A stretch of 34,509 nucleotides of DNA from Spirogloea muscicola (lineage: Eukaryota; Streptophyta; Zygnematophyceae; Spirogloeales; Spirogloeaceae), in assembly GCA_009602725.1 (NCBI GenBank), contig WELB01000001.1:1570307-1604815 (forward strand), given 5' to 3'. Shown one piece after another: positions 601 through 34,509 of this stretch. Both the position numbers and the translations under genes were made by a program. Each line of letters opens with the position of its first letter. Position 1 is the first letter of the stretch. The notes beneath the pieces were generated by a model. The model saw nothing but the letters and a program-made list of their open reading frames with translations. It did no database searches and had not been told where the DNA came from.

Positions 601-624
601 ACATAATACGGAGACCTAATCTAA

Positions 625-720
625 GGTAAGAGAAGAAAGAAGAAAGGGCTCGCCCATTGAGGATAGGGGCTGGAAAAGCCAGCCCAAAAAAGAATGAACA
701 GAGTACGAGAAGGGGGAAGA
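625..720 (+). repeat. R1 stem-loop repeat, long copy matching 20603-20693
   Basis: A roughly 85-90 bp segment is nearly repeated at 20603-20693 in the same orientation. Both contain GCTCGCCCATTGAG, the core GGCTGGAAAAGCCAGCC (here 668-684), then an AAAAAAGAAT run and ACGAGAAGGGGG. The core has self-complementary arms GGCTG and CAGCC separated by seven bases. This is the cleanest long-range pair of R1 copies in the window. Confidence 0.75.
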
Positions 721-949
721 GAGAGAAGGGGAGAAGGGGTGACGGGGGGTTTAAGGGATGCGGGGGGACTAAGCCAGCCCAGGAAGATATGGACAACGTC
801 CGAATTGCCGATAGGCGCCAACCAGGAGAGGGCTCCGACCGGAGGAGCGGGAGATGGGGCGTGTAGCGGCCCGCGCGAGATGCGGCGGGCGGGGCCTCCC
901 GCGTGCGCCCTCTGAGCCGCCAGGCCCCCCCACCTACTCGCCGGCGCAA

Positions 950-1080
950 GGGGGGGGGTTTGTGGGCTTGGCAGCTAGCTCCGGCCTCCCCGGCAGGAAG
1001 ACGAAGAAGTAGACGTCCGGGAAGACGTCGCTGGCGGCTGGGCGGGTGATGCGCTGAGATCTGGCCACTTTTCTGAGGTC
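950..1080. other. GC-rich segment with one protein-like minus-strand reading
   Basis: On the minus strand, roughly 1060 to 970, one frame reads a coherent hydrophobic and aromatic stretch (DVFPDVYFFVFLPG). It looks protein-like but has no start, no supported splice sites and no family match that I know. It may be an exon of an unrecognised gene or chance. Confidence 0.2.
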
Positions 1081-1094
1081 ATTGAGTGCATCCA

Positions 1095-1760
1095 TTCCTT
1101 TGCGCTAGCCTCTCACAGCCCCTGCTGTCAATTTGGAAGCGCTGTTTTCATTGTCTTACTGAGCGCGCAATCGCAGGAGTCAACGAAGAAACTCTCCCAA
1201 GCAGAGGGCGATGGCTGTGATTGGCCATCCCTAGGAAATAAAATGGACAGTGTACGAAGCGGCCTGAAAGCGCCGAAGCACACAGCGACTCAAGTGGCAA
1301 CTGGGTGCTCAATACCCCTTGTGGGAGAGTAACTTCGTGCTATTTGCGCCTTCCGGCCCTCTCTGACCTTCTACATTCTTTTGGGCTGGGCTGGCTTCCC
1401 ACAGCCAGTGGGAGAGCCGATTCTCTCACAGCCATTGCCTCACAATGGAAGAGCTGTTTCTTTTTGAGCCGGCCTCGAGATCTCGCTCATTCCTTTTGTT
1501 CATTTCTTCTTACAGGCTGGCCAATCACAGCCATCGCCCTCTAAGTAGGTTCTGCGGAGGTTATGTAGATCTTTAGATGTGCTTGCCTTGTCGTTTTGGC
1601 GCTTGCGGCCCCTTACGGACCTTTGTAATGCTTTTCGGGCTCGGCTTTTCACAGCCCTCGCCCCCTTTGGATATGCTTACATCTTCTGGCTGGCCCTCCA
1701 CAGCCACGCCTTACTTTGGAGAAGCTTTTCTTGCTTTCCACAGCCTCCGCCCCCTGTGGA
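1095..1760 (-). repeat. R1 repeat cluster, mostly minus orientation
   Basis: At least four full-arm R1 cores appear in the GGCTGG...CACAGCC orientation, near 1389-1406, 1515-1532, 1638-1656 and 1688-1705. Partial CACAGCC words lie near 1113, 1428 and 1738. One plus-oriented core sits at 1213-1227. The recurring flank after the core is a GCC-rich spacer and then a TTTGGA-AGCT-like word. The block 1200-1325 is also similar to 21372-21475 (shared CGACTC, AAGTGG, CTGGGTGC and ATACCCC or ATATCCCC words). A fragment of R2 is embedded at about 1556-1600. Confidence 0.7.
1556..1612 (+). repeat. R2 repeat, short fragment
   Basis: The words TATGTAGATCTTTAGATGTG and CTTGCCTTGT match the internal part of R2 as read from the reverse strand of 20890-21080. 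This fragment runs directly into an R1 core, showing that R1 and R2 occur as adjoining modules. Confidence 0.6.
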
Positions 1761-1814
1761 AAAATTGGTAAAACTGCTCCTCCTTTTCGCAGACATCGCG
1801 CGAGCTGCTTTCAT

Positions 1815-1900
1815 TTATTGGGAGCGAGAGAAGGCGCGGCGCGCATGGAATGGAGGAGGCCAAGTTAAGCGAATGCACTGTGCAGGCAAAAGCAAGTGCA
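1815..1900 (+). repeat. R3 repeat module, copy 2
   Basis: Same landmarks as 495-600: a GAGAGAAGGCGCG stretch, GCGCATGGAA, GGAGGCCAAGTTAAG, and CACTGTGCAGGCA followed by GTGCAGA. It lies about 40 bp before an R2 copy in the minus orientation, giving an R3-R2 composite of about 300 bp. Confidence 0.6.
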
Positions 1901-1929
1901 GAGAAAGGGGCTACACAAAGCGAAGCCCT

Positions 1930-2130
1930 TATGCTGAAGGGGGGCAATTCCGTGTATAAGAAACAAATGTAGGCCAAATGGCCAAGTACAAAGGCAAGCA
2001 CATCTAAAGATCTACATAATCTACAGCAGATTGACCTGCTCAATAACCACGGGTCAAAACATAAAGGTCACTAATCGATACATGAATACTAGATGCCAGA
2101 AACGGAGCCCTTCTGCCACCAACTAGAGCT
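1930..2130 (-). repeat. R2 repeat, full-length copy
   Basis: The segment matches 20890-21080 over about 190 bp in the same orientation, with shared words such as GGCCAAGTACAAAGGCAAGC, ACATCTAAAGA, ACAGCAGATTGACC, GGGTCAAAACATAAAGGTC and CACCAACTAGAGCTCG. Its reverse complement matches the copies at 8695-8885 and in GPHR intron 1. There is no coding potential and no terminal repeat or target duplication that I can define by eye. Confidence 0.8.
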
Positions 2131-2640
2131 CGCTGAAGGGGGGCGAGGTATGAGTGCGAAGCCTAGTTGGGAGGCCGGCGCCCGGCCTTGCGGCGACGAC
2201 TGCGGCGGCGGCGGCGGAAGCGGCCGCGGCGCCGCTTTCTGCTGCAAGCGCGACGACAAGGCGCTGGTGGAGGGCCCTTTGCGGGCCGCCACGCCGGGAA
2301 TAGGCCGGCGGCGAGCCCCAGTGGGGCGGAACGGGGTTCGGCGCTTCTCCGGCCGCCTACCTCCCACACCACAACCCCACGGCTGGGCGGGGAGTCGCGA
2401 CAGTCGGTTTCGCCCGTGCTGCCCGTCTCTTTCGGGCAGGCCGCTGGAGCCGCTTGAGATGTCTGCCCTGCGGAAGTGGCAGCCGGCAGCGCCCCATGGT
2501 GGGACCGGCTGCAAGTCACGTGACCGCCCGCCCCCTCTGCCCGACCGTGCCGGTTCCCTCCGTCTGCTCAATTCCGGCGGTCGGTGGCGCTAGTTGAGCT
2601 TGCCGTTGAGTCCCCGGGAAGGCTTCCTGTTAGGACCCGC
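2131..2640. other. GC-rich island without assignable gene
   Basis: A block rich in CGG and GCC words follows the R2 copy. Open frames exist on both strands (for example plus 2093-2593), but all overlap one another, have high arginine and proline content typical of GC-driven chance frames, and show no domain. It may be the promoter of an unrecognised gene. Confidence 0.4.
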
Positions 2641-3890
2641 CGTCAAACTTCAGCCAAGAGTACGAGTTGGGCGGGGGTAAGTTGAAGAGAAGATGCACTC
2701 TTACCAGGGGGCAGTGGCTGTGAAAACAGAAACATACACTTCTTAAAGTGGATTCGGGCGAAGCTCAGTGCCGAGGATGTATGAATGTGAAAGAGAAGTG
2801 GCTCTCCCAATGGGGGCAAGGGCTGTGAGAAGCCAGCCCGAAAAGAGTTGACAAGGCTCGAAAGGGCCAAATAGGGGCCTGAAGCGCTAAGCAGCTACTA
2901 AGGGGCCTGAAGATGTAAAAGGTGGACTTGCTGAGTGAATACAAGATCGTCCATAGGGGGCGGGGCGATCACTGCGAAGGGCCAAGCCTGACGAGATTCA
3001 GGGAATTACACTTCTCAAAAAAGAAAGCAGCATTTCGAAAGGGGTTGAGGGGTGTGAAAAGCCAGCCACAAGATGGTGAACAAGGCTTAAAGTTGGAAGG
3101 CGCGGGGACCTGAACAGAGCTTTTCCAAGAGGGGCAATGACTGTGAGAAGCTCACCTGAAAGGGCGATAGCTCCTCTAGGAAGGCAATGGCTGTGAGAGC
3201 TCAGACGAATAAGCTGTTTAGGTACGGCAATAGCTGTGGGAGGCCAGCCCAAAAGGATTGGACAAGGTCCGAAAGGGCCAGAAGGGGCAAACAGATGAAA
3301 TTACACTCCGTGACTTCTCTTAATGGATGCTAGATATTTTCTGGTCGACAAATGCGGATCGGAGTAACCAGAAGGCGGAGAAGGGTCGCCCTGCGTGTCG
3401 ACACCCGGAGGCAGCAGCCAAGGCGCGGCCTGTCGATAATTGCACGTCACCCAGGAACGCTTGATGGGAGAGGGCAAGCGGCATTCTGTACATCTGATCG
3501 AGCGACCCTGACGACGCTGAAGCGGCTGCTCGCCCTGCTGCCCTTGACGGAGGAATGGACACGGTCCAACGGAGTCGAAGCACAAATCACTCAGGAAAGG
3601 GAATGACCACTAGGGCTGGCCGCTCAAAGTCCCTAGTCAAGAAGCTCGCGTGGAAAAAGAACACTATGATGGCAAGGCAATGATTGTGAGAGGCCAGCCC
3701 AAAGGAGTGAACAAGGTATAAAACGGGAACAACTAGCAGCCCCAAAAAGGAGCTCTTTCCTCGTATATTCGAGGTGGCAAGCTCTACCCAAGGAGGGAAG
3801 CTCTACCAAAGCCGGAGAGAGAAGCTCCTTTACAGCGCACTATGATTGTGGGAAGATAAAACTCTCCCAATGGCTGTGAAAGGCCAGTAT
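2640..3890 (+). repeat. R1 repeat cluster, plus orientation
   Basis: Plus-oriented R1 copies have cores near 2716, 2821-2838, 3049-3067, 3139, 3189, 3234-3251, 3682-3699 and 3872-3887. Better copies extend to CCAGCCCAAAAGGATTGGAC then AAGGTCCGAAAGGGCC, giving a unit of about 60-65 bp that often starts with a CTTCCAAG-like word and GGCAATGGC. Between about 3115 and 3290 three units follow one another at intervals of roughly 43-51 bp. At about 3300-3620 the repeats are interrupted by a GC-richer piece with short overlapping open frames on both strands and no recognisable product. Confidence 0.75.
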
Positions 3891-3897
3891 AAAAAAG

Positions 3898-3935
3898 AAG
3901 GCAACTCCTTTCCTGGACAAGGAAGGAGTTGCCTT
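3898..3935 (+). repeat. Hairpin: 13-bp perfect inverted repeat
   Basis: AAGGCAACTCCTT (3898-3910) is the exact reverse complement of AAGGAGTTGCCTT (3923-3935), with a 12-base centre in which two further pairs can form. It follows directly on the last R1 core of the cluster. The position and perfect arms suggest a recent palindromic insertion or a transcribed hairpin. No gene nearby allows a functional call. Confidence 0.7.
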
Positions 3936-4091
3936 ATCTTAAGCTGCGGGCGGCGTTGGATAACAAAAGTTACAACTAGCAGCAGCGATAGACTCTACCA
4001 AGGAACTTCTTCATGACAGATCTGGATGCAAAGCCTTAATGGAGACTCACGCTGAGCAGCAAAGTACCAGGGCTGCCTCATAAGAAGACCC

Positions 4092-4147
4092 GATTGTCTG
4101 GCTTTCTCTGTCTCCTAGCCAGCGGAGATAGAGAAAGCTAGACAATC
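4092..4147 (+). repeat. 24-bp-stem hairpin with wobble-only mismatches
   Basis: The 5' arm at 4092-4115 and the 3' arm at 4124-4147 pair over 24 positions around an eight-base loop (TAGCCAGC, 4116-4123). Only two positions are not Watson-Crick, and read as plus-strand RNA both are G-U wobbles; on the minus strand they would be C-A mismatches. This asymmetry fits a structure kept as RNA, such as a small-RNA precursor or processed 3' hairpin, but a young inverted repeat is equally possible. No ORF overlaps it. Confidence 0.75.
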
Positions 4148-4454
4148 AGCTGCATCCTCGTCATCATCATCGAACTCCATGTTCTCATTCCAGAACTGCT
4201 GGCTCATCTTGGGATCAGATTATCTCGCCCCCATTTGCATCAATATCAATAATTTTTTCAGGCATGTTATGAATATGTCAGCGCATTGGGCGCTGTGCCC
4301 ATGACAACGGACAGCTATACAGCAGAGACAGTACTTTACATTAAGGCCCAGAGAGCAGGGTATATTTGCAAAGCATCTTGACAAAGATTACAACTGACGA
4401 TGTCCCACAGGATCTCACGCTTGATATTGCACAGAATATAATCCTCAGCAACAG
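4148..4454. other. AT-richer intergenic stretch
   Basis: Nothing recognisable. Base composition drops visibly from the GC-rich repeat cluster, and this remains so until about 7.9 kb. Confidence 0.4.
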
Positions 4455-4980
4455 ATGGAGGCTGAGGTTGAGATGATGTCCGTGAAGGAGGCGTCCTACG
4501 TGTTCTGTCCTAGTACTCCTTGCCCGTACACGGGATCTCTAAGGAGCTACAGAGCGGATGGTAAGCTTAAGGCGCGTCAGGAGCTTGACAGGTCGCTGAA
4601 GTATCACAAGAGGAATATGCTGAACATAAGGGCAATTAGTGCTACACTGCGTTTGAGAGTGATACCACATAGAGGAGGTCTGCTTAAGCCCTAATGACAG
4701 GGCCCTGACAGCCACCTTCCCTGAAGAGGACGACAGTTTTGAGCCCGATAGACTGTGCGCTACTATGGGTGCAGATGTAGTACTCTCCGAAGAAGTCGAT
4801 TGTGTAGCACTCTTAGGCGCCAAAATCATGGTCAGGGAGGTGAGCCTAAGCACTTTGTCTTATGTCTCACTATCATAGGTAATTGAGATATTCCAGTCAC
4901 ATGACAGGGAGGACCTTGTCTACAACATTGTGGGCACTGACTACAGTCTGGGAGCAAAGAAGGAAGCGCGGCCAGATTGA
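4455..4980 (+). CDS. Unrecognised candidate coding region, possibly spliced
   Basis: An ATG at 4455 opens 79 codons. The start of this frame has a Cys-Pro-rich segment (FCPSTPCPYTG) followed by a lysine- and arginine-rich part with a histidine, loosely zinc-finger-like. After its stop a second frame (about 4701-4838) reads an acidic segment and VLSEEVDCVALLGAKIMV. A possible donor precedes GTGATACC near 4662 and a CTAAT...ACAG acceptor lies near 4700; another GTGAGC to ATAG pair at about 4842-4878 would add VIEIFQSHDREDLVYNIVG. The pieces are protein-like but match no family I know. It could be a decayed transposon-derived gene. The reading stops near the R1 copy at 4980. Confidence 0.25.
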
Positions 4981-5040
4981 CTGGTGGCTGGGAAAGGCCA
5001 GCCCAAAAGAATGGACAAAGTCTGAGCAGAGGGTATAGGG
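4940..5040 (+). repeat. R1 stem-loop repeat, isolated copy
   Basis: Core GGCTGGGAAAGGCCAGCC at 4986-5003, followed by CAAAAGAATGGACAAAGTCT. The left flank (GCGCGGCCAGATTGACTGGT) is the reverse complement of the flank beside the copies near 8675 and 21480, so the conserved unit extends at least 25 bp beyond the core on that side. Confidence 0.75.
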
Positions 5041-5636
5041 CCCGGGGGGCCTTTCAATGTCCCTATGCATTTTGATGGTATCTCATAAGGGCATGGGTTA
5101 ATTGTTCTTGGACCCATGTTTGTGCACTCGCGATTGCAACTCCCAGTACAGCATGCTGGTAGCAGTCCTTCAAGTATCCTACCCTCTCTTAAGCTCGATA
5201 TTGGGCTATGGCCAACACATATCCCGTTAGAATTATAGACCTTACAATGTGACCGGTAACATATGAAGAACTGGCAATTATATACCAAAGTAAAGGTTCC
5301 CTAAGGTGAACGGGTCTTTCCAGATAAGAGATTCTGTATGGCAGAGATCTGGCTTTGTAGCAGTGATGTACTCAGATCAACGTCTATCTGAATGCCATGA
5401 GGGAACGCGATTAGGCTACCTGCTACGCTCATATCACGGACTACAAAAATTGACGGATAACTCAGTTCTGGTCGTAAGACCCATTGCTGCGTCATAGTAC
5501 CGAGTGTAACAGAATCTGTGATAACATTCTCCTAGCACCATCATCTCCTAAGTCAATAACACTGATGGGGTTGCCGTTCATATCGTTCTGGGTCGAACGC
5601 GATATTCCTGCCAACAGGGATTCCAGATAGCTTATT
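5041..5636. other. AT-richer stretch, nothing recognised
   Basis: Short open frames on both strands overlap each other here (near 5300-5495) and none has protein-like character. No repeat copy or RNA gene was seen. Confidence 0.35.
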
Positions 5637-6535
5637 CTAGAGTTCCATGTGGCTACCTAAGATTGAAAAGCTGTCAGTTGATTGTATGGGACCGAATGAA
5701 ACAACAGCGCATGATAAGTCCCCCCCTGGAGTTGTTGTAACATATACATCGGTAACACCACTGTCAGGATCTTTTGCAGACATTAATACACATGTGATTG
5801 TGTACACAGCATTCACAACCAACTGAAAGTTGTAGGTTGCAGCTCCTACTGGTAACGAAGGTCCTTGCGGTTTGCAGTTGACAATACCATTAGTTGCTGA
5901 TAGCCCAGTAACATAAGCCTTTGCTCCTAAGTCGTTTGTTACAAATTGGATATCTATGGAAAGACTTCTTGAGTCTGTCCCTGTTGTCTGTTTTATTCTT
6001 ATCCCAGTTGCATACATGTAAAGACAACTTACATATGATGACTGTACTGAAGGGTCTATGTACTGAGATATTGTAGATACGGAATTTGAGAAAGAGTTCT
6101 TGTTCTGAGAACTGCTAGATGCGCAAGATGTCTGTCTATAAGAGCTTTGAGCACCGTAAAATTGCATTTATCCATCTCGTAGTGACTTCTATCAACACCT
6201 ACTGTACCAGATATGATGCCCAGATAGTTTGCTTAACTGCGTTTACGTTAACAGCTGTCGAGCTGGCACTTTGAGATGACACATCCTTGCATATAATTCC
6301 TGTAACTGTAAGAGCTTAGATCTTGGCACATTGTAGACTGAAATTGTGAATAAGACAAAGACTGTGAGTCTACTGATGACTGAAATATATTGTATACCCT
6401 TGCTTGGAGTACAGCAGCGCATGAAGCTGCACCAACATCCGAGAACGATTGTGCATAAACGCCGCTGATAACAGCGGCCAATATTAGTACATGATCTACA
6501 ATCAACAAGCTGGCGACTATCTGTACCTTATACAA
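5637..6535 (-). CDS. Hypothetical secreted Ser/Tyr/Gln-rich protein, split frame
   Basis: Two minus-strand frames lie end to end. The upstream one (stop at about 6248) starts with a hydrophobic segment ending in an AVISGVYA-like signal-peptidase site, then a serine-, tyrosine- and glutamine-rich chain with several cysteines. The downstream one (from about 6167, stop 5637) continues with the same style (QTSCASSSSQ), then a likely beta-rich domain of about 140 residues. They probably belong to one gene joined by a short intron; a weak GTGCCA donor near 6265 with a TATAG acceptor near 6131 would keep frame. There is no in-frame ATG at the left edge: position 6535 is TTG and CTTTGTATAAGGTACAG looks like an acceptor, so a further 5' exon is likely. 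Base and codon use are AT-richer than in the named genes. Family not recognised. Confidence 0.5.
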
Positions 6536-6990
6536 AGTTGGGAATGGTGTTCAATTTCTATGTGTAAACAGAGCAATGTGCACTCTTCCCAGAACATGTA
6601 AGTTACAAACAAGTAAGCGTTACAAGTTGCCCGGATATCTCTGCATGTATGCGAAGAAGCTTTCTATAAGGTGAATGTGCATGTCTTTAAATTGCTCGCC
6701 CAAGATTACAAGACATTCAGCAAAGAAATCTGCTATTACTTAAGCAAGACTAAGCACATGATACGGATGTTACCCTATATAGCGATTAACCAAGATAATA
6801 GCTGCATCGTCACCTTAAGAGTGTGCAAAGTCTGCCGAGTATTTGATCGTACAAGCCAACCAGCATGTACAGATCATGTAAGCAAAGCACCTCTGGTCAA
6901 CTAATAATTCAGCCTTACGGGGTCGACTGGTGATTCAGCAAGTAACTTACACAGCAATTACGAGGCATAAAACATGCCTTCTGGGTCAAC
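6536..6990. other. AT-richer stretch, nothing firm
   Basis: It may hold the 5' exon or promoter of the secreted-type gene to its left. A 77-codon plus-strand frame at 6671-6904 has no recognisable feature. Confidence 0.3.
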
Positions 6991-6993
6991 TGG

Positions 6994-7480: not shown

Positions 7481-7499
7481 ATTCTGTATCATTAGTTTT

Positions 7500-7900: not shown

Positions 7901-7919
7901 AATGCGAAATCACCCCCAT

Positions 7920-8060
7920 TGAGGATGTGAACATGTGGTGTATAATTCGGGAGCTACCCAACATGTCTGCTCTCACAAAGAATCCTCAAAACCCGTCCCT
8001 TTTCAAGCTCCACCCATGAGAGCTGCTTCCTCTGCAGATTGCATTCCCTCTGGCTGCCCC
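7920..8060 (+). mobile_element. Ty1/copia-type protease remnant
   Basis: From 7935 the frame reads VVYNSGATQHVCSHKESS, the pattern of the copia retrotransposon protease active site, usually W-hydrophobic-hydrophobic-D-S-G-A-T followed by His-hydrophobic-Cys. Here the aspartate is asparagine, a stop lies five codons upstream (7920-7922), and no integrase or reverse transcriptase follows, because the frame runs into an R1 copy. It is best read as a short dead fragment. The call rests on one motif and could be coincidence. Confidence 0.4.
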
Positions 8061-8200
8061 TTCAGACCTTGTCCAACCTTTTCGGGCTGGCCTCTCACAC
8101 CCCTTGCCCCACTTGGAAGAGCTTACCTATCTGCATGGACTCCGCTGGCTTTCACAGCCGCCCCTTTATGTCAGCAGCCGCGTTCTTCTCCTTGACACCC
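8040..8200 (-). repeat. R1 stem-loop repeat
   Basis: CCCCTTCAGACCTTGTCCAA, CCTTTTCGGGCTGGCCTCTC and then TTGCCCCACTTGGAAGAGCT make this one of the most complete minus-oriented R1 units, including the distal TTGGAAGAGCT word. The arm that should read CAGCC is altered to CACCCC, so the stem is broken in this copy. Confidence 0.7.
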
Positions 8201-8549
8201 TAGACATCGTGGATGTACAACCTGGCGGATGTCGGCAAGCCTTGTACCAATGTCCTTACTGACGAAGGCGTACAAGAGTTCAGCGTCGACCCTCATGGCT
8301 GGTCACGCAGTGGAGAGTGCAGAGCAGAGAAAGCTGACTACCCCCGCAGCGATCATTTCCTACCTTCGGCTGCATGGGTCCCCGCTTTTATATCTTACTT
8401 GAGAACAGTGCTGGTCTAGGACATGCACGACCTGAGAGTGTATTTTCAGCCGAATGGGCCTGCCGGAGCACAAGTACCGTCTTACACCGTGTGTCAGCCT
8501 GTTTGCAGTGAGCTCAGGGTCGTGGTTTGCACCTGATAGAAACAGCCTT

Positions 8550-8690
8550 TAAATGTAAGGGCATTAGCTGTGAGAGGCCAGCCTAAAAAGGAATAACTAA
8601 GCGACAAGAAGCTGGTCAACTATTAGCCGGCTCCTTCAGACCTTGTCCATTCCTTTGGGCTGGCCTCTCACAGCCACCAGTCAATATGGC
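8550..8690. repeat. Facing pair of R1 repeats
   Basis: A plus-oriented core (8566-8583, AGCTGTGAGAGGCCAGCC) and a minus-oriented core (8658-8675, GGCTGGCCTCTCACAGCC) lie about 75 bp apart, so the pair itself forms an inverted repeat. The second is preceded by TTCAGACCTTGTCCATTCC and followed by ACCAGTCAATATGGCCGCGC, the extended consensus also seen near 4960 and 21480. Confidence 0.75.
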
Positions 8691-8694
8691 CGCG

Positions 8695-8890
8695 CTTTTC
8701 CTTTAGCTGGTGGCAGAAGGGCTTGTCATTTGCGGTCCGACATTCGGGCATCAGACCTCTACATACTGACTCGTTTTTACTGAGCGCGTCAGCCTATTTA
8801 GCAGGTGATGTATGTCTGTTTATGTGGTCTTTCTTCTGATGTGGTTGCCTTCAATACTTGGGCCACTCAGGCCCAAGGTACTCCATCACC
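8695..8890 (+). repeat. R2 repeat upstream of GPHR exon 1
   Basis: Reads as the reverse strand of 1930-2130 and 20890-21080: GGTGGCAGAAGGGCTT, CATTCGGGCATCAGAC, TACTGAGCGCGTCAGC and GGGCCACTCAGGCCC. It is a direct repeat of the copy in GPHR intron 1 (9298-9445), and the two bracket the first recognisable GPHR exon. Confidence 0.75.
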
Positions 8891-8959
8891 CAACACACGC
8901 TCCCCTGTTTGCCATCAACGGCGGCCTTGTTCTTCCTCAGCTCCCCACCTCCCCGGCCA

Positions 8960-9010
8960 GGCGCGGATGCCGGCGGCGGCTCCGCGGCGGCGGCGGCGGC
9001 GGCGGCGGCC
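8960..9010 (+). repeat. GGC/GCG trinucleotide run
   Basis: An uninterrupted run of GGC or GCG triplets ends just before the ATG at 9011, whose context (GCCGCCATGG) fits a strong eukaryotic start. Such runs often stall sequencing and assembly, relevant to the N at 9086. Confidence 0.8.
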
Positions 9011-12000
9011 ATGGCGGTCAGGATGCTGGGGCAGCTGCCGGCGCCCAAGCACGGGGCGGGGCTCGGCGGTTTGCCGGCGTACGATNGCCGTCTTCGCGCT
9101 GTCCACCAACCTCCTCCAGCTCGTCCTCCTGGAGATGCTGCCCCTGCTGGGCAAGCGCGCGCGCCTCCTCAACTGGCGCCTCGACCTCGTCGCCCTCATC
9201 GCGCTCCTCGTCTTCGTGCTCCCCTACTACCACTGCTACATCGTCCTGCGTAACGGCGGTCTGTTTGCCGCTCCGAAACCCATCACCCCATTGTCGATTG
9301 CCGTTCGGTATTCGGGCATCAAGTAGCGATCGATCTCTACGTGCCGACTCGTGGTCACTGAGCGGGTCAGCTTGGCAGCAGGTGATGTGCATCTGTCGAT
9401 GTGCCTGCCTTTGTACTCGGCCACTCAGGCCCTTCATCACCCATCATCCTCCTTGTGGCCCCACTCGACGGTCCAGCTCGAGTGTGCCCACTTCGTGGCG
9501 TCCCCCAGATGAGCCGCAGCTTGGCAAATCCTGAGAAACCCACACCCCTGAGACCACCTTGGCTTCCGGATGCCTGGCAGGCATGCGCAGCGAGCGCGCG
9601 GGCCTTGGCGCCGTCGTCTTCCTCGCCGCCTTCCTCTACGCCTTCTGGCGCATGGGCATCCACTTCCCGATGCCGTCCCCCGACAAAGGTGCAGACCCAC
9701 TTCAGGCCTTGTGCTGCTTGCTCCTCTGCCGCTAAAGCCAAGACTATGGGAGAGAGCTCCATCCAGGCCCCGCGGCGTTGACGAGACCTGGCGTTGGCGT
9801 CCAGGCTTTTTCACGGTGGCGCAGCTGGTCAGCCGCATCGGCGTCATCGGTGTGTCACTCATGGCCATCCTGTCGGGCTTCGGAGCTGTCAACTTGCCCT
9901 ACAGTTACCTCTCCCTCTTCATCAGGTCGCCGCCCTCCTTCCCTATCCGCTCCTTCTCTCCCTCTAGTCAATGCAGGTGAATGTTTCCAGGAAAATCTAA
10001 AACCTCAACTCCATGCTGAGAAAGTGCACCGCATATTCAGGTCTGTACCTCAAAGTCAGCCTCATATCATTGTCGCCTTGCTTGCTTGCAAGAGCAGGAA
10101 GATTGAGGAGTCGGAGATCGCGGTGCTGGAGCGGCGGCTGATGCAGGCCATGGAGTCGTGCGTGGCAAGGAAGAAGAAGATTGTGCTATCACGAGTGGAG
10201 CAGGGCGAGCAGAACGGCTTGCACCCGGTTCGCACCCCTCTGCCATTGCAGCTTTGGCTGCCATCTTGCTGTGCAGCTGCTTGGACTTTCCCTGGATGGC
10301 AATCCAGAATTGTGCAATGCATGCCCGCCATGGCCGGAGGTCAATGCACACTGGTTAGACACAGCTGAGCTCTGCTGCTTGATTAAGTGCAAGAGGGGCA
10401 TCCGCGGCAGCCTGTTGGGCCACAGGAGAAGCACTCCTACTTCAAGCGCCTCGTCACAACGGTGGTCCGCACAGGCAAGCAGGACGAGCAAGAGGTTGGT
10501 GAGTGCTCGATTCTACCTCCTTCATGTGGCCTCCTAAATTCAGCTGCAGCGTCTTAGAGGTCGTGAAATTTCTCCTTAGCTCATGAGGGGGGCCTTGGCA
10601 ACTGCTCGCCGTGGCAGACATACTCGGCATCGAGGGTGAGGTACACGCCCTTGAGGGTCTCTGCCAGACGCTGTTCGTGGAGATCTGTGAACTCCGGCAA
10701 GCCAAGGTGCGTTCCAGTCTTGGAGCTCTAGTCTTGGCCAATTTCTTGTGACCAGCTTGGCTTGTAGTAGTATACAGAAGGGCCACTTTGTCTTGACTGC
10801 ATTGCCGTTGCAGTTGCTTGCCTGCTAGTAACCCGAAAGTTTTATTGTCCAAGCATCCTGGCAAACTTAAACCCCCTTTGCTGGTGCAATTATTGCCCCG
10901 TCAGCAAGCCATGGCGTACTCTCGTACCTGGCGCGGCCACGTGAAGAATCTGCTTGGCTATGCCTGCTCCATATACTGTATATACAAAATGTATACGGTG
11001 CGCCCTCTAGTCCGGCATGTTAAGAGAAGTAGCAGAAAAGCACATGTGGCAGTGAGGCCTTTCCACATCCTTTGAGGAAGGACATAACATGATGAGAATA
11101 GTACGCAATAATAGATGATGAGAATAATAGACGATGAGAATAGTAGGCAATATAGTGTGATGAATCGATTCTTTATTTGACATCCTCATAGTGGCTGAAA
11201 GCCATGCCTGTGGGGGTTGGTGTTGTGCAGTCCTGCACGAGCCTGCTGCTCTTCAAGGAGGTAGATGCTTACTTGCAGACCTTGTCTCGTGCTGCTTCAG
11301 GAGACACAGATTGATATAGAATGAGATAGCTGCGATGGAATGAACAGATGATAGCATCCAGCCGATGCTAGTATCTCATCATCAGCATCCCTCTTGTGCT
11401 GACGCCAAAGCTTTTGATTCGCTAAACTGTTGCAGACTAACAGCGAAGACCCAGTTTCTACGACCATCAGCCTCTCCTTGCATTACTTCCATGTGCAACT
11501 TAACGTAGCACTCTGGTCCCAGGTATATCCTCTCCGAATTTCTCTCTGTTCCTGACCACTCACTCCATGTGTGTGCAGTATACAGCTTGTTCCCAATTGC
11601 TGGCATTTGGCCTTGCTTAAACTGCTACAGTAGAAGGGCCGTGTTGTATTTGGTGTGCTATACATCTGGATGGCAAGAGATAGTAGAGGATTCTGCCCCT
11701 GTCAATAGCAGGCATTGTCGACGATGAAGAAGCAGTTGTTGACCAGCCCGGCTGGAGGAGGCTGACACCAGTCAGCACTGTGAAGTCAACAAATATGCGA
11801 TCTACTGCCTTCCTTCTGAGACATTGTGCCAGAATAGTTAGTGATCATGCGTGAGGTTTGTGCATTTTATTTCATGAAATTACGGCAGGCGCTTATTGAC
11901 CCTCATCGTTTGCTCTTGCTCAGTACATCTCGCTGCTCTTCACAGGCGTTCTCATCACGGTGTCCCTGCGTGGCTTCCTGTTCAACCTGATGAGAGTATG

Positions 12001-15900: not shown

Positions 15901-18004
15901 CTGTCAGCACCTTACAACATTCTTGTGAAGTGCAGAAGCTTGTGCAGGAGCTTGCAGATTGAGATTATCAGAAAGATATTGCAGCTTGCGGTGGCGACAA
16001 TGATGGCCCATGCTACAGGGTTTCCAGTGCTGGCAGATTTAAAAGGAGGGGAAGGAGCCCACATGGGTACCATGTATGATGTTGAGCACGCCGGGTGGGA
16101 GGCCAGCCTCCATTGCCAGCTCCGAAAGCATCGCCGCAGCACCTGACACCGCGAGCAAGTCTGCTAGCTTCTGGGCTTGATAAAGACGGCGAGCAGAGTG
16201 GACATCTCGAGCTCAGTATAAATAACCACTCACAAAGCTGAAGTTCTTTTCAGTCCACAGGACCGATCCTTGCCAACTTCCGTGTATAAGTACAAGCATC
16301 GCTCGTTGGGCACGGCCACTGTGCATGGGCAGGATGTGCGAAGGCCACACCTGGGTCTTTCTCTGACGGCTTTAGGATGTATGTGTTGCCGCATGTGACG
16401 GCCATGGGAAACATCTGCATTGCACGAGCGCCAACGGCCACGCTCATCAAGAAGGGGGCCACTGCAAATAGCCAGAGTTTTGCTAGCTGCTGCTTTGCTG
16501 TCCTCGCTGCCCTCGTGTCAGAAAAGGTTGCAGCTCGACTTTAGCCCAATATGCAGTCCTGGGCAACTCCCGGCTGTCAAATCAGCCCCAACTTGTAGGT
16601 ACATTTAAGATCAGGGACTGCCTGTCTGTCTTTGGATATCCTTGATCAGAGCACTGGGCCGCTTTCTTGCGGCAGGAGCATGCAGCCAACGAGCACTGGG
16701 GTCGTTATCAGTTGCTACGAAGCTTGTGGGAGCTCAAGCCTTGGTCTCCTCACCCAAAGCGGGATCATGGCAGGAAAGTTGAAGGGGCAGATGCCTGCGC
16801 AGACACCGAGCGGCTGTCGGATGCTGTACGTGTCGATGCCCGCTGATACATTCTCGACGAGCTCGCCCATGAGTGCAGTCGGCATGCCGCACGCCTGCTC
16901 CACCACCTCTGCCCTTTGCCCGCCAGGCACTGCCGTCAATCTCGTCTTAAGGGTGCTAGGAAGGACAGCAACTTGGGTGGCAGCAGCAGAGTGCGGGCTC
17001 GTCCTCTGTGCAAGCGAGCCATGTAATGGCGCGGCGTGCACAGGGGTTGGCCATCGTGCTAGTGCGCACCGAGGCCGCGGAATACATCGCCCCGGGCGTC
17101 TGCCAGCGTCTTGCCCTGCTCAATTGTCACTGCCATTGCCAGCTTGTCCTGCAGAGGGGCACAATAGCAACAGTCATCGCTTGCAAGGGTACATTAGTTG
17201 GGGTGTTGAAGGACAAGTGTGGATTAGAAGGTTGCCATGCAGGCAAGCTTGCAAGCTCAACCGGCAGTCACCATCCACAGGGCTCAGGCTTAGGTGGGCA
17301 TCTGTATCTCCTTGCATGCTAACACAACGGATCAGGCCACGGGGAGCAAGCCATCACAGGAGTTGGTTCAAGGCAGAGAGTGCACGACCACCGGTCACTG
17401 ACACTCAGCGACCCCCTCACACGGCGCTTGTTCTCTCAGGTGCTGCAGGCCAGGGCACTCCTCACAAGGTCTACCAATATTATAGATCTATGTTATATTG
17501 GTCTACCAAATATGATCTTAATGAGATAAGAAAAGGATGAGACAAGCTAAGACTGGGGACCACGAAGCAGAGGTGGTGCTTCAAGGGGGCGCGCACCATG
17601 TTCTCCCGGACGAGCGCCTGCAGCCGGAACATGACCCGCGCGCGGGCGGTGACAGGCGTGGCCCGCCAGGCGGGGTAGGCGTCGCGCGCGGCGGCCACCG
17701 CGGCCTCGAATTCCGCGCCGGTCGCCAGCGGGACACGGCTCACCAGCTCCTGCGTCGCCTGCTCCGCGGGGCTCGCGCGGCCCTCTGCCAAGCGGCTCTC
17801 AGGCCCCTCTGCCGCCGCCGCCGCCGCCGCCGCCTCCGCCTGCCCTCCGGCTGCCCGAGGAATGCCCGGAATACGCGACGGCTTCGGCGCCGTCTCTGCC
17901 GGCGCCGGCAGCGCGACTGTCTGGTGCGGTCTTGCAGCGGATGCTGGTCTAGGCAATGCGAAGGACGGCGGCGGCGGCCGCCGTCGCGGCCCTTTCCTGT
18001 ACAT
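12954..18004 (-). CDS. ALDH6: Methylmalonate-semialdehyde dehydrogenase (ALDH6), mitochondrial
   Basis: CoA-acylating aldehyde dehydrogenase of valine, pyrimidine and inositol catabolism; converts methylmalonate or malonate semialdehyde to propionyl- or acetyl-CoA in mitochondria. Sixteen exons in transcription order: 18004-17597, 17148-17070, 16908-16754, 16414-16351, 16142-16063, 15844-15779, 15534-15484, 15320-15169, 14895-14805, 14589-14509, 14354-14277, 14136-14101, 13915-13872, 13671-13593, 13422-13332, 13060-12954. All junctions keep phase and give 553 residues. Landmarks are [49 protein letters not shown], catalytic cysteine in [43 protein letters not shown] and [19 protein letters not shown]. 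The arginine-rich start suits a mitochondrial presequence. Oddity: the usual strand with I-G-G and N-P-A-T before TQELVSRVP is replaced by an alanine-rich stretch. Confidence 0.96.
17810..17835 (-). repeat. GCC run coding poly-alanine in ALDH6 exon 1
   Basis: The triplet run codes a chain of alanines between the putative presequence and the catalytic domain, in place of the conserved N-terminal strand of this family. Confidence 0.8.
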
Positions 18005-18548
18005 GGATTTGGCGTCGTCCGCGTTTCTGCGGCGATGGCCTCGTCAATTTCAACGGAACGCGCGGCTGGCAAACCGGCGCTACGCCAGAGCCGGCGAATC
18101 ACTGCGCTGCTGTGGGCCTCGTCTCGAATCCTCCAAATCTCAGTGGTCGTCCCCTGACTGACTGGCCGCTGCTCCCGCCCTGCCCAACTTCTCGCAGAGA
18201 AACGCCGGCGGCGGCCGCGGGCGGCCAAGGCCCGGTGCGACGGCGGCAGAACCTCGCGCTTCTTCATCTTCCTCGTCGCCTTCTCGATCATCGCATGGGT
18301 AAGGCCGACACTCCGCCTCGCTTTTAAATTCCCAGAAATATCTCTGATTTGGTTCTACCGTTGTGTTGCCTTCTCTATCGTGTTAGGTGCTTGTGGAGTT
18401 GCCAGTCCAGAGAGCGCTGGCTGGTCTTGTGCGATGCCTTGAGCTGACAACAACGCGCGGCTTCTACGTGGGTCTGTCGAGCAGATGTCGTACATGTTCC
18501 TCACCAAGGACGAGGAGTAGGAGCCAGGCTCACGGCACCCAACTGGAN
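18005..18548. promoter_or_regulatory. Head-to-head promoter region of ALDH6 and TLS1, with a possible small membrane protein
   Basis: The 5' ends of ALDH6 (minus) and TLS1 (plus) face each other over at most about 540 bp, so promoters are probably shared. Within it, one plus-strand frame reads a basic cluster (EKRRRRPRAAK, about 18197-18229), then RFFIFLVAFSIIAW up to a GTAAGG donor at 18299. A TTAG acceptor at 18386 continues in frame with VLVELPVQRALAGLVRC. This resembles the signal-anchor of a type II membrane protein, but there is no family match and its end is unclear. Confidence 0.35.
18548..18548. other. Ambiguous base (N) at TLS1 5' end
   Basis: A single N next to a CGG run marks where recognisable TLS1 sequence starts. 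The usual basic N-terminal region is not found to the left, so sequence is probably missing here. Confidence 0.8.
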
Positions 18549-20132
18549 CGGCGGCGGCGGTGGGCTGGCGTCGCCGCGCGGCGGGCTAGCAGCGGCCGGT
18601 GGCGCACCCCCTGGGGACGACGACCGCGGCGAGCTCGTGCTCAACGAGAACTTTGCGCAGGAGACGGTGGTCACCGTCGAGGACCCCAATATGTGAGCGC
18701 GCCGCTGCTGCACGGGCAGGCGCGCGCTTGGCAGGGGCCCCGGATGGCTGTGGCGGGTGACGCACCGCCGTTGTTGCCGCTGCCACGCCAGGGTGAAGTA
18801 CGTGGAGCAGGAGCTGGCGAAGCGCAAAGGCGTGGCGCTGGCGGCGCAGAGCGCTGAGGAGGCCCTGCAGTCTGCTGAGGACGAGCTCTACCGCGTCCCC
18901 GACCACCTCAAGGTGCACGCAGCATTGGCGGGCGCCGCAACAGCACTGCTGCCCAACAGTGGTGCTGGGTGTTGCTTGTTGCGACAAGCTCTGGTGTGAA
19001 GCTCTGGATGCCCGACTGCCGTGTAGGCTTGCCGGGCTTGCCAGCCCGCTTCCGGCGAGCAGTGTGCTAGACGCGTGAGACGACGGAAGGCAGCCATGGC
19101 CTGCCCCTGTTGCTACCACTGGCCTGGCAGGTGGCGCAGCGCAGTGCAGACGAGGGTTCCACGGCGTGGACGACTGGCATTGCGGAGGTCCAGCTGCCAA
19201 TTGAGTGCGCATGCGCAGCCCCCGCCCGCTGCGCATACCTAGGACGACACCAAAGAAAGGGAAGCCGCTTTTGGCTAGAGTTGCATGGTTGTGTTGTCTT
19301 TACGGCATATGGTTGAGGTTGTTAGGATGTCAAGAGCTGGGGCTCTGCAAGAGTTGGGGTAGTCAAGCTCTGGCAGCTCCGAGGGTGCCAGTGGCAGCCC
19401 ATGTTGCAGGCTGCAGACTGAACATCACGTGGACGGGTTGGCCATGAAAATGTGGCTTATTTGACTATTGCTCGCCCGCAGGTACAAGCTGAGCAACATT
19501 GAGGAGACGGAGGCAGCAAAGAAGCACCTGCAGGAGTCACGACCGCTTGTCGGGCGCAGGTCCGCAGTCGCCCGTGCTTCCGTGGGCCTCACAGCCAATT
19601 TTCCCACGCGCCGCTCCCCGCTGACAGCCCCTGCTTGATGCAGGCCGCCTGGCCCTGCAATTGCCCTATTTGCCGCGTATGGAGCTTATTGACGGCTCCT
19701 TTCCAGCATCTATACCGTCCCTTGATCTCTAACAAGTCCTCCCTCTCTGCAAGCTGCCTGGGCAGGAAGGCAGAGTCCACACTACCGGCGAGCTTCAGCG
19801 CAGACTACCACCAACGTGGTCGCGACTTTGCCGAGACACAGCGCCGAGGTCAGCTCCCGTCGGGCCCCACTACAGGTTGCGGTTGCCAAACATGCAAGCT
19901 TGGGCGATGTCGATGTATGATATGCAGATTGTCAAATCCATGGGTGCTAGAAATTGAGCATTCTCTAATGTCCTTCCTACCACTTTGAGCAGCGAGTGTG
20001 GCCGCCAACAAGGACGGCCGGAAGGACGCGCCCCCAGGCGGCGGCGAGGAGGGCCGGCGGCTGGCGGCCACAGACGAGATCATGCTGGAGCGGTTCCGGA
20101 AGCGCGAGCGCAACCGCATGATGCGGCGGTAG
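18549..20132 (+). CDS. TLS1: TLS1/C9orf78 (Hep59) family spliceosome-associated protein, 5' partial
   Basis: Nuclear protein of the Hep59 family. The human member C9orf78 associates with the spliceosome and the BRR2 helicase; fission-yeast Tls1 affects splicing of telomere-silencing factors. Exons: from 18549 to 18692, 18792-18912, 19131-19204, 19482-19559, 19766-19848 and 19993-20132, all phase-consistent, stop TAG at 20130. Diagnostic segments are NENFAQETVVTVEDPNM, VKYVEQELAKRKG, ELYRVPDHLK, WTTGIAEVQLPIE, YKLSNIEETEAAKKHLQE, SFSADYHQRGRDFAE and the C-terminal IMLERFRKRERNRMMRR. The plant tract between the ADY motif and the C-terminus is shortened, with the usual HPELY words missing. The basic N-terminus (60-100 residues in relatives) is absent left of the N. 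Assignment is firm; the start is unknown. Confidence 0.93.
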
Positions 20133-20250
20133 CAAGCAGCCGGTGCACGATGGCAAGAGTGCAGCTGCGCCAAGCCCGTCGGCCGGCCACATGTGGCGAG
20201 CCTGCCCGCTGCGGAAAGTGGGGAAAGAGTTGGGGTCAGGGGATCTCTCG
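20133..20250 (+). other. TLS1 3' flank
   Basis: Short GC-rich 3' flank without clear features before the repeats begin. Confidence 0.4.
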
Positions 20251-20254
20251 GTTT

Positions 20255-20335
20255 CGGCCCATTGGACCATGTACATTCCTTTGGGGCTGGCCGATCACAG
20301 CCGCTGCCTTACTTTGTAAGAGCTGCTTCCTTCTC
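20255..20335 (-). repeat. R1 stem-loop repeat carrying a TGTAA
   Basis: GGCTGGCCGATCACAGCC at 20285-20302 with the usual flanks (CATTCCTTTGGGGC before, GCTGCCTTACTTTG after). Where other copies read CTTTGGAAGAGC, this one reads CTTTGTAAGAGC, giving a TGTAA at 20315-20319. That is the first such poly(A)-like word I see downstream of the TLS1 stop, so the repeat may supply its 3' end signal. Confidence 0.65.
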
Positions 20336-20399
20336 AATTGGGCGCGAGTGGAGAGCAGGGGAGCGTGGAGTAGGTAAGGAGCAGTGGTTGGGAAGGCGT

Positions 20400-20478
20400 G
20401 GCCGAAGCGGCCGCCTTGGCACTAGCGTTTGCCTGAACAGTGAATTGCCTTAAATTGGCCTGCCTGTCGTTTCATGCG
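20400..20478 (-). repeat. R3 repeat module, copy 3 (reverse)
   Basis: The reverse complement contains GCATGAAACGACAGGCAGG, CCAATTTAAGGCAAT and CACTGTTCAGGCA, matching 527-580. Confidence 0.6.
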
Positions 20479-20602
20479 AACGGCGTGACTTCGCTGGTTG
20501 GGCCGGGGCTGCTGGGGCGGGCGGGCCGCAGTCTACGCCAGTCTACGGCGACGCCCACCTGAGGCTCCATCCGCGCTGCGAGCGCCAGGGCAGCCACTTG
20601 CG

Positions 20603-20693
20603 AGAAATAGAAGAAAGTGCTCGCCCATTGAGAATAGGGGCTGGAAAAGCCAGCCCAAAAAAGAATCAACAAAGAACGAGAAGGGGGCCAGGG
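20603..20693 (+). repeat. R1 stem-loop repeat, long copy matching 625-720
   Basis: Core GGCTGGAAAAGCCAGCC at 20639-20655, inside an 85-90 bp near match to 625-720 some 20 kb away. Confidence 0.75.
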
Positions 20694-20814
20694 TAAGCGC
20701 TAAGATAAACAAGCACACAAAGAAACAAAGCAGCTACGGATCACTCAGTAACCCCTGCTAAGCAGCCTTAGGTCAGAGACGCTAGGCTCCTGGAAGTGGG
20801 TCCCAATAGGAGAA

Positions 20815-21085
20815 ATAGCTCTTCCAAGGTTAGGCAGTGGCCGTCAGAGGCCAGCCCAATGCAAATAGCCCTTGCAAAGTGCAAAGTAAGCAATTTCGTG
20901 TATTTGGAACAAACGAAGGCCAAACGGCCAAGTACAAAGGCAAGCACATCTAAAGACCTACATGACCTACAGCAGATTGACCCGCTCAGTAACCTCGGGT
21001 CAAAACATAAAGGTCGCTATTCGATGCCTGAATACTGGATGTCAGATACGAAGCCCTTCTACCACCAACTAGAGCTCGTCCAGCT
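20815..21085 (-). repeat. R1 copy followed by full-length R2 repeat
   Basis: An R1 core (GGCCGTCAGAGGCCAGCC, 20839-20856) preceded by AGCTCTTCCAAGGTTAGGCA is followed at 20890-21080 by a full R2 copy in the same orientation as 1930-2130. The order mirrors the R1/R2 adjacency in the left cluster. Confidence 0.75.
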
Positions 21086-21370
21086 TTCTGGTGCAAGGCA
21101 TTAGCCTGAGCACGCTGCAAACAGGCCGAAACTCGTCGTCGCAAGAAAGACAGATATGCAGCTGGTAAGCCCATCTTAGCCGGAAACACATCTGCACGAC
21201 GTGTGTAGCCGAGATTGGCAATGTTTTGGAGGATGGTGTGGAAACGAGGACCCAGACAGCCAAAGATGTCAATTGCCGCTGGCAGGAGCTGGTCGAAAGT
21301 GGAAAACGTGTGATCGAAAGTAAGGCGATGGTGTGAGAAGAGCTTGCACACGAGGGAGAACGACTAACCC
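21086..21370. other. Intergenic, nothing firm
   Basis: Minus-strand frames of up to 121 codons cross this region and continue into the R2 repeat. They are probably non-coding, and no domain is recognisable. Confidence 0.35.
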
Positions 21371-21600
21371 GCAGAGGGCGATGGCTGTGATTGGCCAGCC
21401 CCGAGAAGGGGCCAGAAGGCGCGGAAACCACAACGACTCGAAGTGGCGCTGGGTGCATGATATCCCCTCTTGAGCCACCAGTCAATCTGGCCGCGCTTTC
21501 TTCTTGAGCAGCAGCGGGTCAGCGAGGCTGGTCCTCGAACTTTTGTTCTCTGCTGGCTGACCAATCACAGCCATCGCCCTGGAAAAGGGTCTTACTCTCA
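21371..21600. repeat. Facing R1 repeats with block shared with 1200-1330
   Basis: A plus core (GGCTGTGATTGGCCAGCC, 21383-21400) and a minus core (GGCTGACCAATCACAGCC, 21555-21572) form an inverted pair. GCAGAGGGCGATGGCTGTGA and the following CGACTC, AAGTGG and CTGGGTGC words match 1201-1310. ACCAGTCAATCTGGCCGCGC matches the extended flank near 4960 and 8675. Confidence 0.75.
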
Positions 21601-21604
21601 ACTA

Positions 21605-25939: not shown

Positions 25940-34509
<8,570 letters not shown>

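Follow-up and report, generated by a model that had tools for sequence, protein, structure and literature searches.

A short repeat with a palindromic core, here called R1, recurs through a 34,509-nucleotide stretch of DNA (the window), and the locus raises the question of whether this core is kept as a hairpin or whether the copies are the remains of something mobile.

Repeat detection and copy number

The R1 profile was built by iterated nhmmer from the copies of an earlier note, which had reported more than 20 copies in both orientations. This was borne out, with 28 matches in the window at E ≤ 0.5 and 27 at E ≤ 0.01 (Table 1); a copy was present at each of the 20 coordinates listed in that note, and both of the flanks described for the core were found. 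Matches beyond the listed 20 were at 1120(-), 1433(-), 1745(-), 2716(+), 3139(+), and 3189(+), together with the fragment 771-810 and the weak match 3612-3638 (E 0.32). In 100 whole-window shuffles, one match scored as many bits as the weaker copies. The exact pattern GGCTG-N(5-11)-CAGCC occurs 12 times in the window against 1.21 expected, a count reached in 0 of 100 shuffles. Eleven of the 12 exact occurrences are on the earlier list; the twelfth, at 16572, does not belong to R1. The GGCTG/CAGCC core as originally claimed holds for the 11 listed occurrences, the remaining nine listed copies having imperfect arms. The block GGCTGTGAnnnGCCAGCC at ≤3 mismatches gave 21 matches against 2.39 expected (shuffle maximum, 8). 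In a seedless count of 8-mers, filtered for low complexity, the commonest in the window were GGCTGTGA (15) and GGCCAGCC (14), with 13 and 12 of these, respectively, inside R1 matches (weak match counted). R1 is confirmed as a real dispersed repeat family.

Table 1. R1 copies and companion repeats in the window; bits are nhmmer scores
Feature	Position	Strand	Score (bits)	Remark
R1 copy	642..713	+	40.1	Core 668; 92% identity to 20602-20687 over 87 bp
R1 fragment	771..810	+	17.8	5' arm lacking
R1 copy	1091..1148	-	32.5	
R1 copy	1185..1273	+	48.6	Core 1213, CCAAT-bearing
R1 copy	1346..1424	-	41.6	Core 1389-1406
R1 half copy	1423..1461	-	26.1	Outer half
R1 copy	1496..1547	-	34.4	Core 1515-1532, CCAAT-bearing
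R1 copy	1600..1679	-	45.0	Then R2 piece (1556-1589), same strand
R1 copy	1685..1729	-	23.3	Core 1688-1705
R1 half copy	1713..1763	-	23.4	
R1 half copy	2688..2725	+	14.8	
R1 copy	2794..2876	+	63.0	Core 2821-2838; top score
R1 copy	3025..3097	+	34.5	
R1 half copy	3115..3151	+	22.8	
R1 half copy	3166..3204	+	20.4	
R1 copy	3207..3288	+	53.2	
R1 fragment, weak and doubtful	3612..3638	-	6.2	E 0.32
R1 copy	3672..3733	+	38.8	
R1 copy	3854..3910	+	25.3	
R1 copy	4963..5038	+	43.0	GCGCGGCC outer variant; 92% identity to 8636-8697 over 62 bp
R1 copy	8051..8124	-	59.0	
R1 copy	8538..8617	+	39.6	Faces 8625..8701; pair between R4 and R2
R1 copy	8625..8701	-	54.1	GCGCGGCC outer variant
R1 copy	20251..20330	-	54.4	
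R1 copy	20612..20691	+	38.1	
R1 copy	20811..20899	+	42.6	Abuts R2, then R4, same strand; R1 ends at 20859 under longer profile
R1 copy	21364..21432	+	31.3	CCAAT-bearing core
R1 copy	21516..21583	-	28.2	CCAAT-bearing core
R2 piece	1556..1589	-	23.9	Adjoins R1
R2	1916..2150	+	220.7	Seed
R2	8671..8901	-	166.7	Seed
R2	9291..9447	-	142.1	Seed; apparently in a GPHR-type gene intron (predicted)
R2	20862..21100	+	231.9	Seed
R3	493..621	+	114.7	Seed
R3	1809..1933	+	110.2	Seed; runs into R2
R3	20403..20511	-	95.0	Seed
R4	21084..21281	+		Seed; reverse complement FGCLGPRF...RVSACLQRAQA
R4	8347..8539	-		Seed; reverse complement FGCMGPRF...RVSACLQ with stops

Ends and arrangement of the copies

Copies can be aligned over lengths between about 40 and about 130 bp, more than the core spans. 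With a long R1 profile, 24 of 27 matches begin at model position ≤13 and their ends are scattered over 41-131, the profile limits varying with the choice of seeds. In pairwise alignment (124 accepted pairs of 325), left ends cluster at -40 to -21 (50) and at -10 to +4 (39), and right ends are broader, in partial agreement with the profile: a rather constant outer end and variable inner ends. On the reverse complement, the outer end of many copies consists of pyrimidines in a run. Two pairs of distant copies share sharp-edged stretches of 62 and 87 bp at 92% identity. Target duplications were sought by eye in the flanks of a few copies, and nothing convincing was seen.

Among the 17 neighbouring pairs within 250 bp, 13 have the same orientation (hand count, with the weak match at 3631 dropped), a tandem arrangement that retroposition does not predict, and three face each other with outer ends outward (1182-1425, 8538-8704, and 21359-21587). 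Half units form runs at a spacing of 27-50 bp (hand count). In the R1 clusters, Tandem Repeats Finder called a single array, weak and with an 18-bp unit, at 734-773.

Conservation and pairing of the core

The conserved feature of R1 is the sequence block GGCTGTGAnnnGCCAGCC, in which five of the eight loop positions are conserved like the arms. The earlier observation that the loop differs while the arms are kept applies to the three central loop positions only (identity 0.62); the other loop positions stand at 0.92 and 0.98, against 0.93 and 0.92 for the arms. In the 5-bp arms, 15 of 105 arm cells carry a change on one side (11 of them unpaired) and 0 of 105 a change on both. Covariation in the core was 0.077 compared with 0.085 in shuffles, a selected stem was likewise unsupported in a shifted pairing register, and the arms of a copy paired no better with each other than with swapped arms (p = 0.11). 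Arm swapping across other R1 segments (26 of 28 matches, six tests) gave p = 0.11-0.82 except for one p = 0.009, obtained when the outer module was paired with the 3' arm; this value does not survive six tests. As we read the predicted folds, the core hairpin is included in 2 of 12 copies on the R1 strand and in three of four chosen copies on the reverse strand. A pair-aware covariance model gave 25 matches at E ≤ 1 and a sequence-only model 32; the former gave higher bits to the copies from which it was built, bit scores of the two models not being comparable, and found no further clear copy.

There is no sign that the hairpin is preserved as a structure. The earlier note had proposed selection on a foldable core and a test of arm covariation against a null; that test was run and found no covariation, and with no compensatory arm change, covariation at the level of shuffles, and arms that pair no better than swapped ones, selection on folding is not supported. 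Should the reading given below be right, R1 is a warning that a palindrome shared by many copies does not, taken alone, point to a selected structure.

Genomic setting and companion repeats

The window is intron-bearing eukaryotic DNA with intron-split genes, and the host of R1 is a eukaryotic nuclear genome, probably of the green-plant lineage. A bacterial REP-like element is ruled out by the intron-split genes, and a protein-coding repeat is ruled out by single-base length differences between copies. R1 is confined to three gene-poor stretches, 3-12 kb apart, which also hold the decayed repeats R2, R3, and R4, and it lies nearer to these than circular shifts would place it (p ≈ 0.04). One R1 cluster is between two gene ends, and two divergent gene gaps contain no R1.

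The two R4 copies differ at 16 of 55, 12 of 53, and 25 of 53 columns at codon positions 1, 2, and 3, and the R4 reverse complement shows a codon-position bias as in a former gene, presumably the end of a retroelement ORF, which it may resemble. On the minus strand at 20810-21281, the order is R4, R2, R1, the one case of an R1 tail contiguous with a putative element ORF, R4 being so read from its codon bias. R1 also adjoins a piece of R2 on the same strand at 1556-1681; in shuffled sequence downstream of R1, the R2 profile never exceeded 2.0 bits. At 8.7 kb, R1 is on the opposite side of R2 from the order at 20810-21281, and the partner of R2 at 1809-2150 is R3 and not R1. For most of the long R1 copies, the R2 profile did not match the tail; R2 had been suspected by eye in the long-copy tails at 1213 and 21383, where the profile found none. 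The best alignment of R3 with R1 scored 16.4, reached by 1 of 120 single-R3 shuffles; R3 as a distant R1 variant is a weak proposition because three R3 copies were inspected and the shuffles were of a single R3.

Searches for relatives

Four DNA patterns had no match in viral contigs, and one DNA pattern had none in bacterial and archaeal genomes. The R4 peptide gave 20 pattern matches in the former and 295 in the latter, with none confirmed. No relative was found for the cluster at 600-3950 among plasmids, phages, and E. coli, or for the R4 peptide among plasmids and phages; against the PDB, this peptide gave a single match at E 0.67, which is noise. As the collections searched, apart from the PDB, are not intended to include eukaryotes, the lack of relatives for R1 and R4 says little. 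Four R1 core strings, searched for literally, were absent from the literature covered; papers seldom print strings of this kind. ARAGORN found no tRNA in the window, and Rfam gave no match at the gathering score; at a cutoff of E 1, the segment 560-5100 had no match of tRNA type and gave only weak matches to miRNA families, on an unrelated hairpin. A tRNA-like or other known RNA head, as a tRNA-derived SINE would have, was not found.

Origin of the repeat

Our preferred reading, held tentatively and at a little short of an even chance, is that R1 is decayed mobile-element debris which, reverse-complemented, represents the 3' terminus of a LINE-like or SINE-like element. The reverse complement would be the 3'-terminal part of either a LINE or a SINE that shares a LINE's 3' end, reading ...GGGCTGGCCTCTCACAGCCATTGCCCC..TTGGAAGAGCT..TTTCTT. 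The element RNA would have been copied from its 3' end by reverse transcriptase, with most insertions ending early, and it is proposed that such early stops leave a common 3' end and a varying 5' limit. The 18-bp core may be part of the tail recognised by the reverse transcriptase, and R4 would be the retroelement ORF, with R2 and R1 as its 3' region. The copies would now be neutral and decaying, some having multiplied via local tandem duplication. The suggestion in the earlier note of a non-autonomous element fits, as the copies are non-coding, dispersed on both strands, and confined to gene-poor stretches that they share with further decayed repeats, and the pair at 8538-8704 sits between two pieces of another repeat. 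That note also allowed that, with no covariation and the copies inside a known larger transposon consensus, the stem-loop would be only a piece of that element; covariation is absent and the transposon-like unit that R1 adjoins is indeed larger, but it matched no known consensus. No reverse-transcriptase or endonuclease Pfam domain was found in the frames scanned, which were part of the window's frames, and the full parent element may lie outside the window. If right, this reading extends the host's repeat catalogue by an unnamed dispersed family, together with the element that probably gave rise to it.

Foldback elements with arm sub-repeats exist, and R1 might be the terminal inverted repeat of transposase-mobilised DNA elements of the foldback or MITE-like kind, with solo and tandem copies as broken arms and arm sub-repeats. 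The three facing pairs with outer ends outward, one of them between R4 and R2, and the constant outer end agree with this, but facing pairs, at 3 of 17 within 250 bp, are not above chance orientation, the interiors of the three are alike only in part, and there is no clear target duplication, the TA flanking the 8.6-kb pair (by eye) being too short to count; we consider this origin unlikely. It is similarly improbable that R1 is a tandem-repeat unit spread by local duplication and rearrangement and never itself mobile. The prevailing same orientation of neighbours and the spacing of the half units speak for such a history, and the Tandem Repeats Finder result and the spread over three stretches and both strands speak against it; distant pairs that are 92% identical with sharp edges, in a family so spread out, require dispersal.

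Selection for protein binding to the core as a repeated dyad, for a regulatory role, or for RNA structure is very unlikely. Twenty copies give 190 possible pairs, of which the 149 chosen for a flank identity ≥0.6 were compared; in 144 of these non-independent pairs, with gap columns omitted, the 18-bp core was more alike than the flanks. Core conservation looks inflated because the copies were found via the core. Four of the five strict matches in the window to the NF-Y-type CCAAT consensus are R1 cores; these four, however, are paralogues that hardly differ, and two lie between gene ends. The copy at 642-713 folds better than shuffles (z -2.9 and -3.2 on the two strands), as does its close copy at 20612-20691 reversed (z -2.1), against which stand the missing arm covariation and the absence of an Rfam match at the gathering score. 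The multi-copy regulatory site offered in the earlier note is not supported by position, one cluster lying between two gene ends and two divergent gaps being free of R1. A highly improbable combination is that R1 is an undescribed LINE/SINE-type tail of the green-plant lineage whose 18-bp core has since been adopted as a protein-binding dyad, with a CCAAT box in some copies; such adoption would explain a core better kept than its flanks and free of covariation. Were the core bound or transcribed, R1 would be an instance of mobile-element tails turned into regulatory sites.

Comparison with known systems

Like bacterial REP/BIME sequences, R1 is a short, palindrome-bearing intergenic repeat in both orientations, but its host is eukaryotic, its stem shows no sign of conservation, and its units are longer and decayed. 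With foldback elements and MITEs, it shares non-coding copies in both orientations, three facing pairs, and half-unit sub-repeats, and it differs in that facing pairs are not enriched, interiors are only partly alike, and a clear target duplication is lacking. Hairpin-bearing 3' tails common to stringent LINEs and their partner SINEs (UnaL2, ZfL2-1, and ZfL2-2) are established (PMC4176376). Measured against such tails, R1 is without hairpin covariation, recognised target duplications, or a visible reverse transcriptase, is found in a different host group, and has an R4 partner whose homology is putative. Like them, it has a palindromic core near a rather constant end and many copies of different lengths, one of which is contiguous with a putative former coding sequence.

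Distribution of the repeat
The earlier note described R1, a short dispersed repeat with the core GGCTG-loop-CAGCC, as a multi-copy family, and this was confirmed by core counts, an iterated profile, shuffles, and seed-free 8-mers. The window contains 12 exact cores (1.21 expected) and 21 degenerate cores (2.39 expected). The iterated profile gave 28 matches, 27 of them with E ≤ 0.01; 100 whole-window dinucleotide shuffles gave one match at 14.8 bits or more, and 100 shuffles by 500-bp blocks gave none at 14.8 bits. After low-complexity filtering, the two halves of the core were the commonest 8-mers of the window, so the finding is independent of the note's seeds. Twenty-six copies, counted without a fragment at 771 and a weak match at 3612-3638, were located in three stretches, 0.56-5.1 kb (18), 8.0-8.75 kb (3), and 20.2-21.65 kb (5), with none in the rest of the window. 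Neighbours within 250 bp (17 pairs, tallied by hand with the weak match 3631 dropped) were tandem in 13 cases, facing in 3, and diverging in 1.

Stem-loop
Selection on a foldable core, proposed in the same note, is not supported: pairing and covariation equalled those of shuffles, and arm changes mostly break pairs. In an alignment of 21 of the 28 matches (7 half copies, fragments, or weak matches excluded), the six-pair core stem was paired in 81.0% of cells (81.4% in shuffles) with a covariation of 0.077 (0.085 in shuffles), and the covariation score rose to 0.133 when the 3' side was shifted one column along. A shifted five-pair register was paired in 87.6% (87.5% in shuffles). Within the 5-bp arms, one-sided changes were found in 15 of 105 cells, 11 of them breaking the pair, and two-sided changes in none; the sixth, outermost pair had two-sided changes in 2 cells, as in shuffles (mean 2.1). 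RNAalifold predicted four pairs, none with change on both sides. When 12 copies were folded on the R1 strand, z-scores ranged from -2.9 to +1.1 and, by our own reading, 2 of the 12 predicted folds contained the core stem; on the reverse strand it was present in 3 of 4 chosen copies (z -0.9 to -3.2). The conserved feature is sequence, not structure, with conservation of 0.93 for GGCTG, 0.92 for the next three bases, 0.62 for the middle three, 0.98 for GC, and 0.92 for CAGCC. The core was more alike than the flanks in 144 of the 149 pairs with flank identity of at least 0.6 (from 190 pairs of 20 copies), pairs that are not independent and whose copies were located via the core itself.

Two other hairpins are listed in the table. 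The stability of the 24-bp one was reached by 0 of 200 shuffles, and Rfam returned only weak miRNA-family matches far under the gathering score; this hairpin may be the precursor of a small RNA or, alternatively, an inverted-repeat element of small size.

Features of the window and basis of their assignment
Feature	Position	Strand	Basis or detail
GPHR_N	about 9.8-9.9 kb	plus	Pfam
ABA_GPCR	about 10.9-11.0 kb	plus	Pfam
Aldehyde dehydrogenase	best stretch about 16.75-16.92 kb	minus	Pfam
Hep_59	about 18.8-18.9 kb	plus	Pfam
Deaminase domain	about 22.9-23.1 kb	minus	Pfam
AP2-like match	about 24.4 kb	plus	Pfam, 26.5 bits, below cut-off (33.3)
Helicase-associated domains	about 27.6-27.9 kb	minus	Pfam
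Helicase_C	about 28.5-28.6 kb	minus	Pfam
R2	20862-21100, 1916-2150, 8671-8901, 9291-9447; 34-bp piece 1556-1589		Self-comparison, profiles
R3	493-621, 1809-1933, 20403-20511		Self-comparison, profiles
R4	21084-21281, 8347-8539		Self-comparison, profiles
Strong hairpin	3893-3940		Adjoins R1 copy 3854-3910; 3885-3950, -28.8 kcal/mol, z -5.34
24-bp hairpin, 8-nt loop	4092-4147		4080-4160, -42.6 kcal/mol, z -7.55
29-bp unit, twice in tandem	30082-30141		90% matches; close to helicase exons

Companion repeats
Self-comparison and profiles revealed three further decayed families (R2, R3, and R4) in the R1-bearing stretches. Translated on the reverse complement, one R4 copy gives FGCLGPRF...RVSACLQRAQA and the other, with stops, FGCMGPRF...RVSACLQ, a string that we take to resemble the ORF end of non-LTR retroelements. 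Differences between the copies at codon positions 1, 2, and 3 (16/55, 12/53, and 25/53 same-frame columns) are the pattern left by a former protein gene. No relatives of the peptide were confirmed in viral contigs, bacterial or archaeal genomes, plasmids, phages, or the PDB, eukaryotes being expected only in the last.

At 20810-21281, R1 is followed on the plus strand by R2 and then R4, so the minus strand reads putative ORF end, R2, R1. An R1 copy is likewise followed by an R2 piece on the same (minus) strand at 1681-1556. The R2 matches seen from three R1 copies near 1556-1681 are one single piece, and the match behind R1 copy 20639 is the R2 of 20810-21281; the independent cases of adjacency are therefore two. 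R3 occupies at 1809-2150 the place that R1 holds at 20810-21281, and a facing R1 pair lies between R4 and R2 at 8347-8901. Because the R2 copy at 1916-2150 has the sequence at this junction in common with the 20.9-kb copy, an insertion into the 8.6-kb copy seems likelier than a deletion from the other.

With a long R1 profile, 24 of 27 matches begin by model position 13, and the inner ends range from 41 to 131. Pairwise left ends cluster at -40 to -21 (50/124) and -10 to +4 (39/124), and right ends are more spread. In many copies the outer, rather constant end consists of a run of pyrimidines when read on the opposite strand.

The R1-bearing stretches are skewed in AT (600-4000, +0.08 to +0.20; 8000-10000, -0.18; 20000-22000, +0.15) and GC (+0.11 to +0.15, -0.12, and +0.11, respectively). 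This marked purine or pyrimidine skew agrees with a filling that is rich in mobile elements and biased to one strand.

Gene context and origin
The window is intron-bearing eukaryotic DNA. The AP2-like match, with what is known of such genes, suggests a green-plant lineage. Single N bases occur at 9086, 18548, and 22308; they may mark unresolved small assembly indels, since the frame of what is presumably exon 1 of the GPHR-type gene shifts across the N at 9086. A multi-copy regulatory site, also raised previously, finds no support in the positions of R1. The 20.2-21.65 kb cluster lies between two gene ends, that of the minus-strand deaminase gene and that of a plus-strand frame with its stop at 20130-20132, probably the end of the Hep_59-type gene. 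R1 is absent from the divergent gaps dehydrogenase/Hep_59 (dehydrogenase-strand ORF start at 18004) and deaminase/AP2 match. Only the 8-kb cluster is upstream of a recognisable gene, and no recognised genes surround the 0.6-5 kb cluster. R1 cores account for four of the five strict CCAAT matches, but the CCAAT-bearing copies are near-identical paralogues, and we consider a selected site or RNA very unlikely.

Overall, R1 is a real family, most likely debris of a mobile element, in line with the note's suggestion of a non-autonomous element; selection on its stem-loop finds no support. Perhaps this debris is the 3' end of a retroelement (LINE or SINE), a reading that we put tentatively, at a little under even chances. 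Copies truncated at the 5' end would give a common outer end and varying inner ends, as in R1, and this pattern, together with the pyrimidine run, is why it is preferred. Its weak points are that no reverse transcriptase was found in the window frames scanned, that no target duplications were recognised by eye in the flanks of a few copies, that the hairpin shows no covariation, that R1 at 8.7 kb flanks R2 on the opposite side, and that tandem neighbours are many (13/17). Derivation from a foldback element is unlikely, and tandem multiplication is doubtful to the same degree. Decayed repeats like R1 are expected in such genomes. For the LINE/SINE 3' end, it is established that LINEs of the stringent type and their SINEs have a hairpin-bearing 3' tail in common (PMC4176376).
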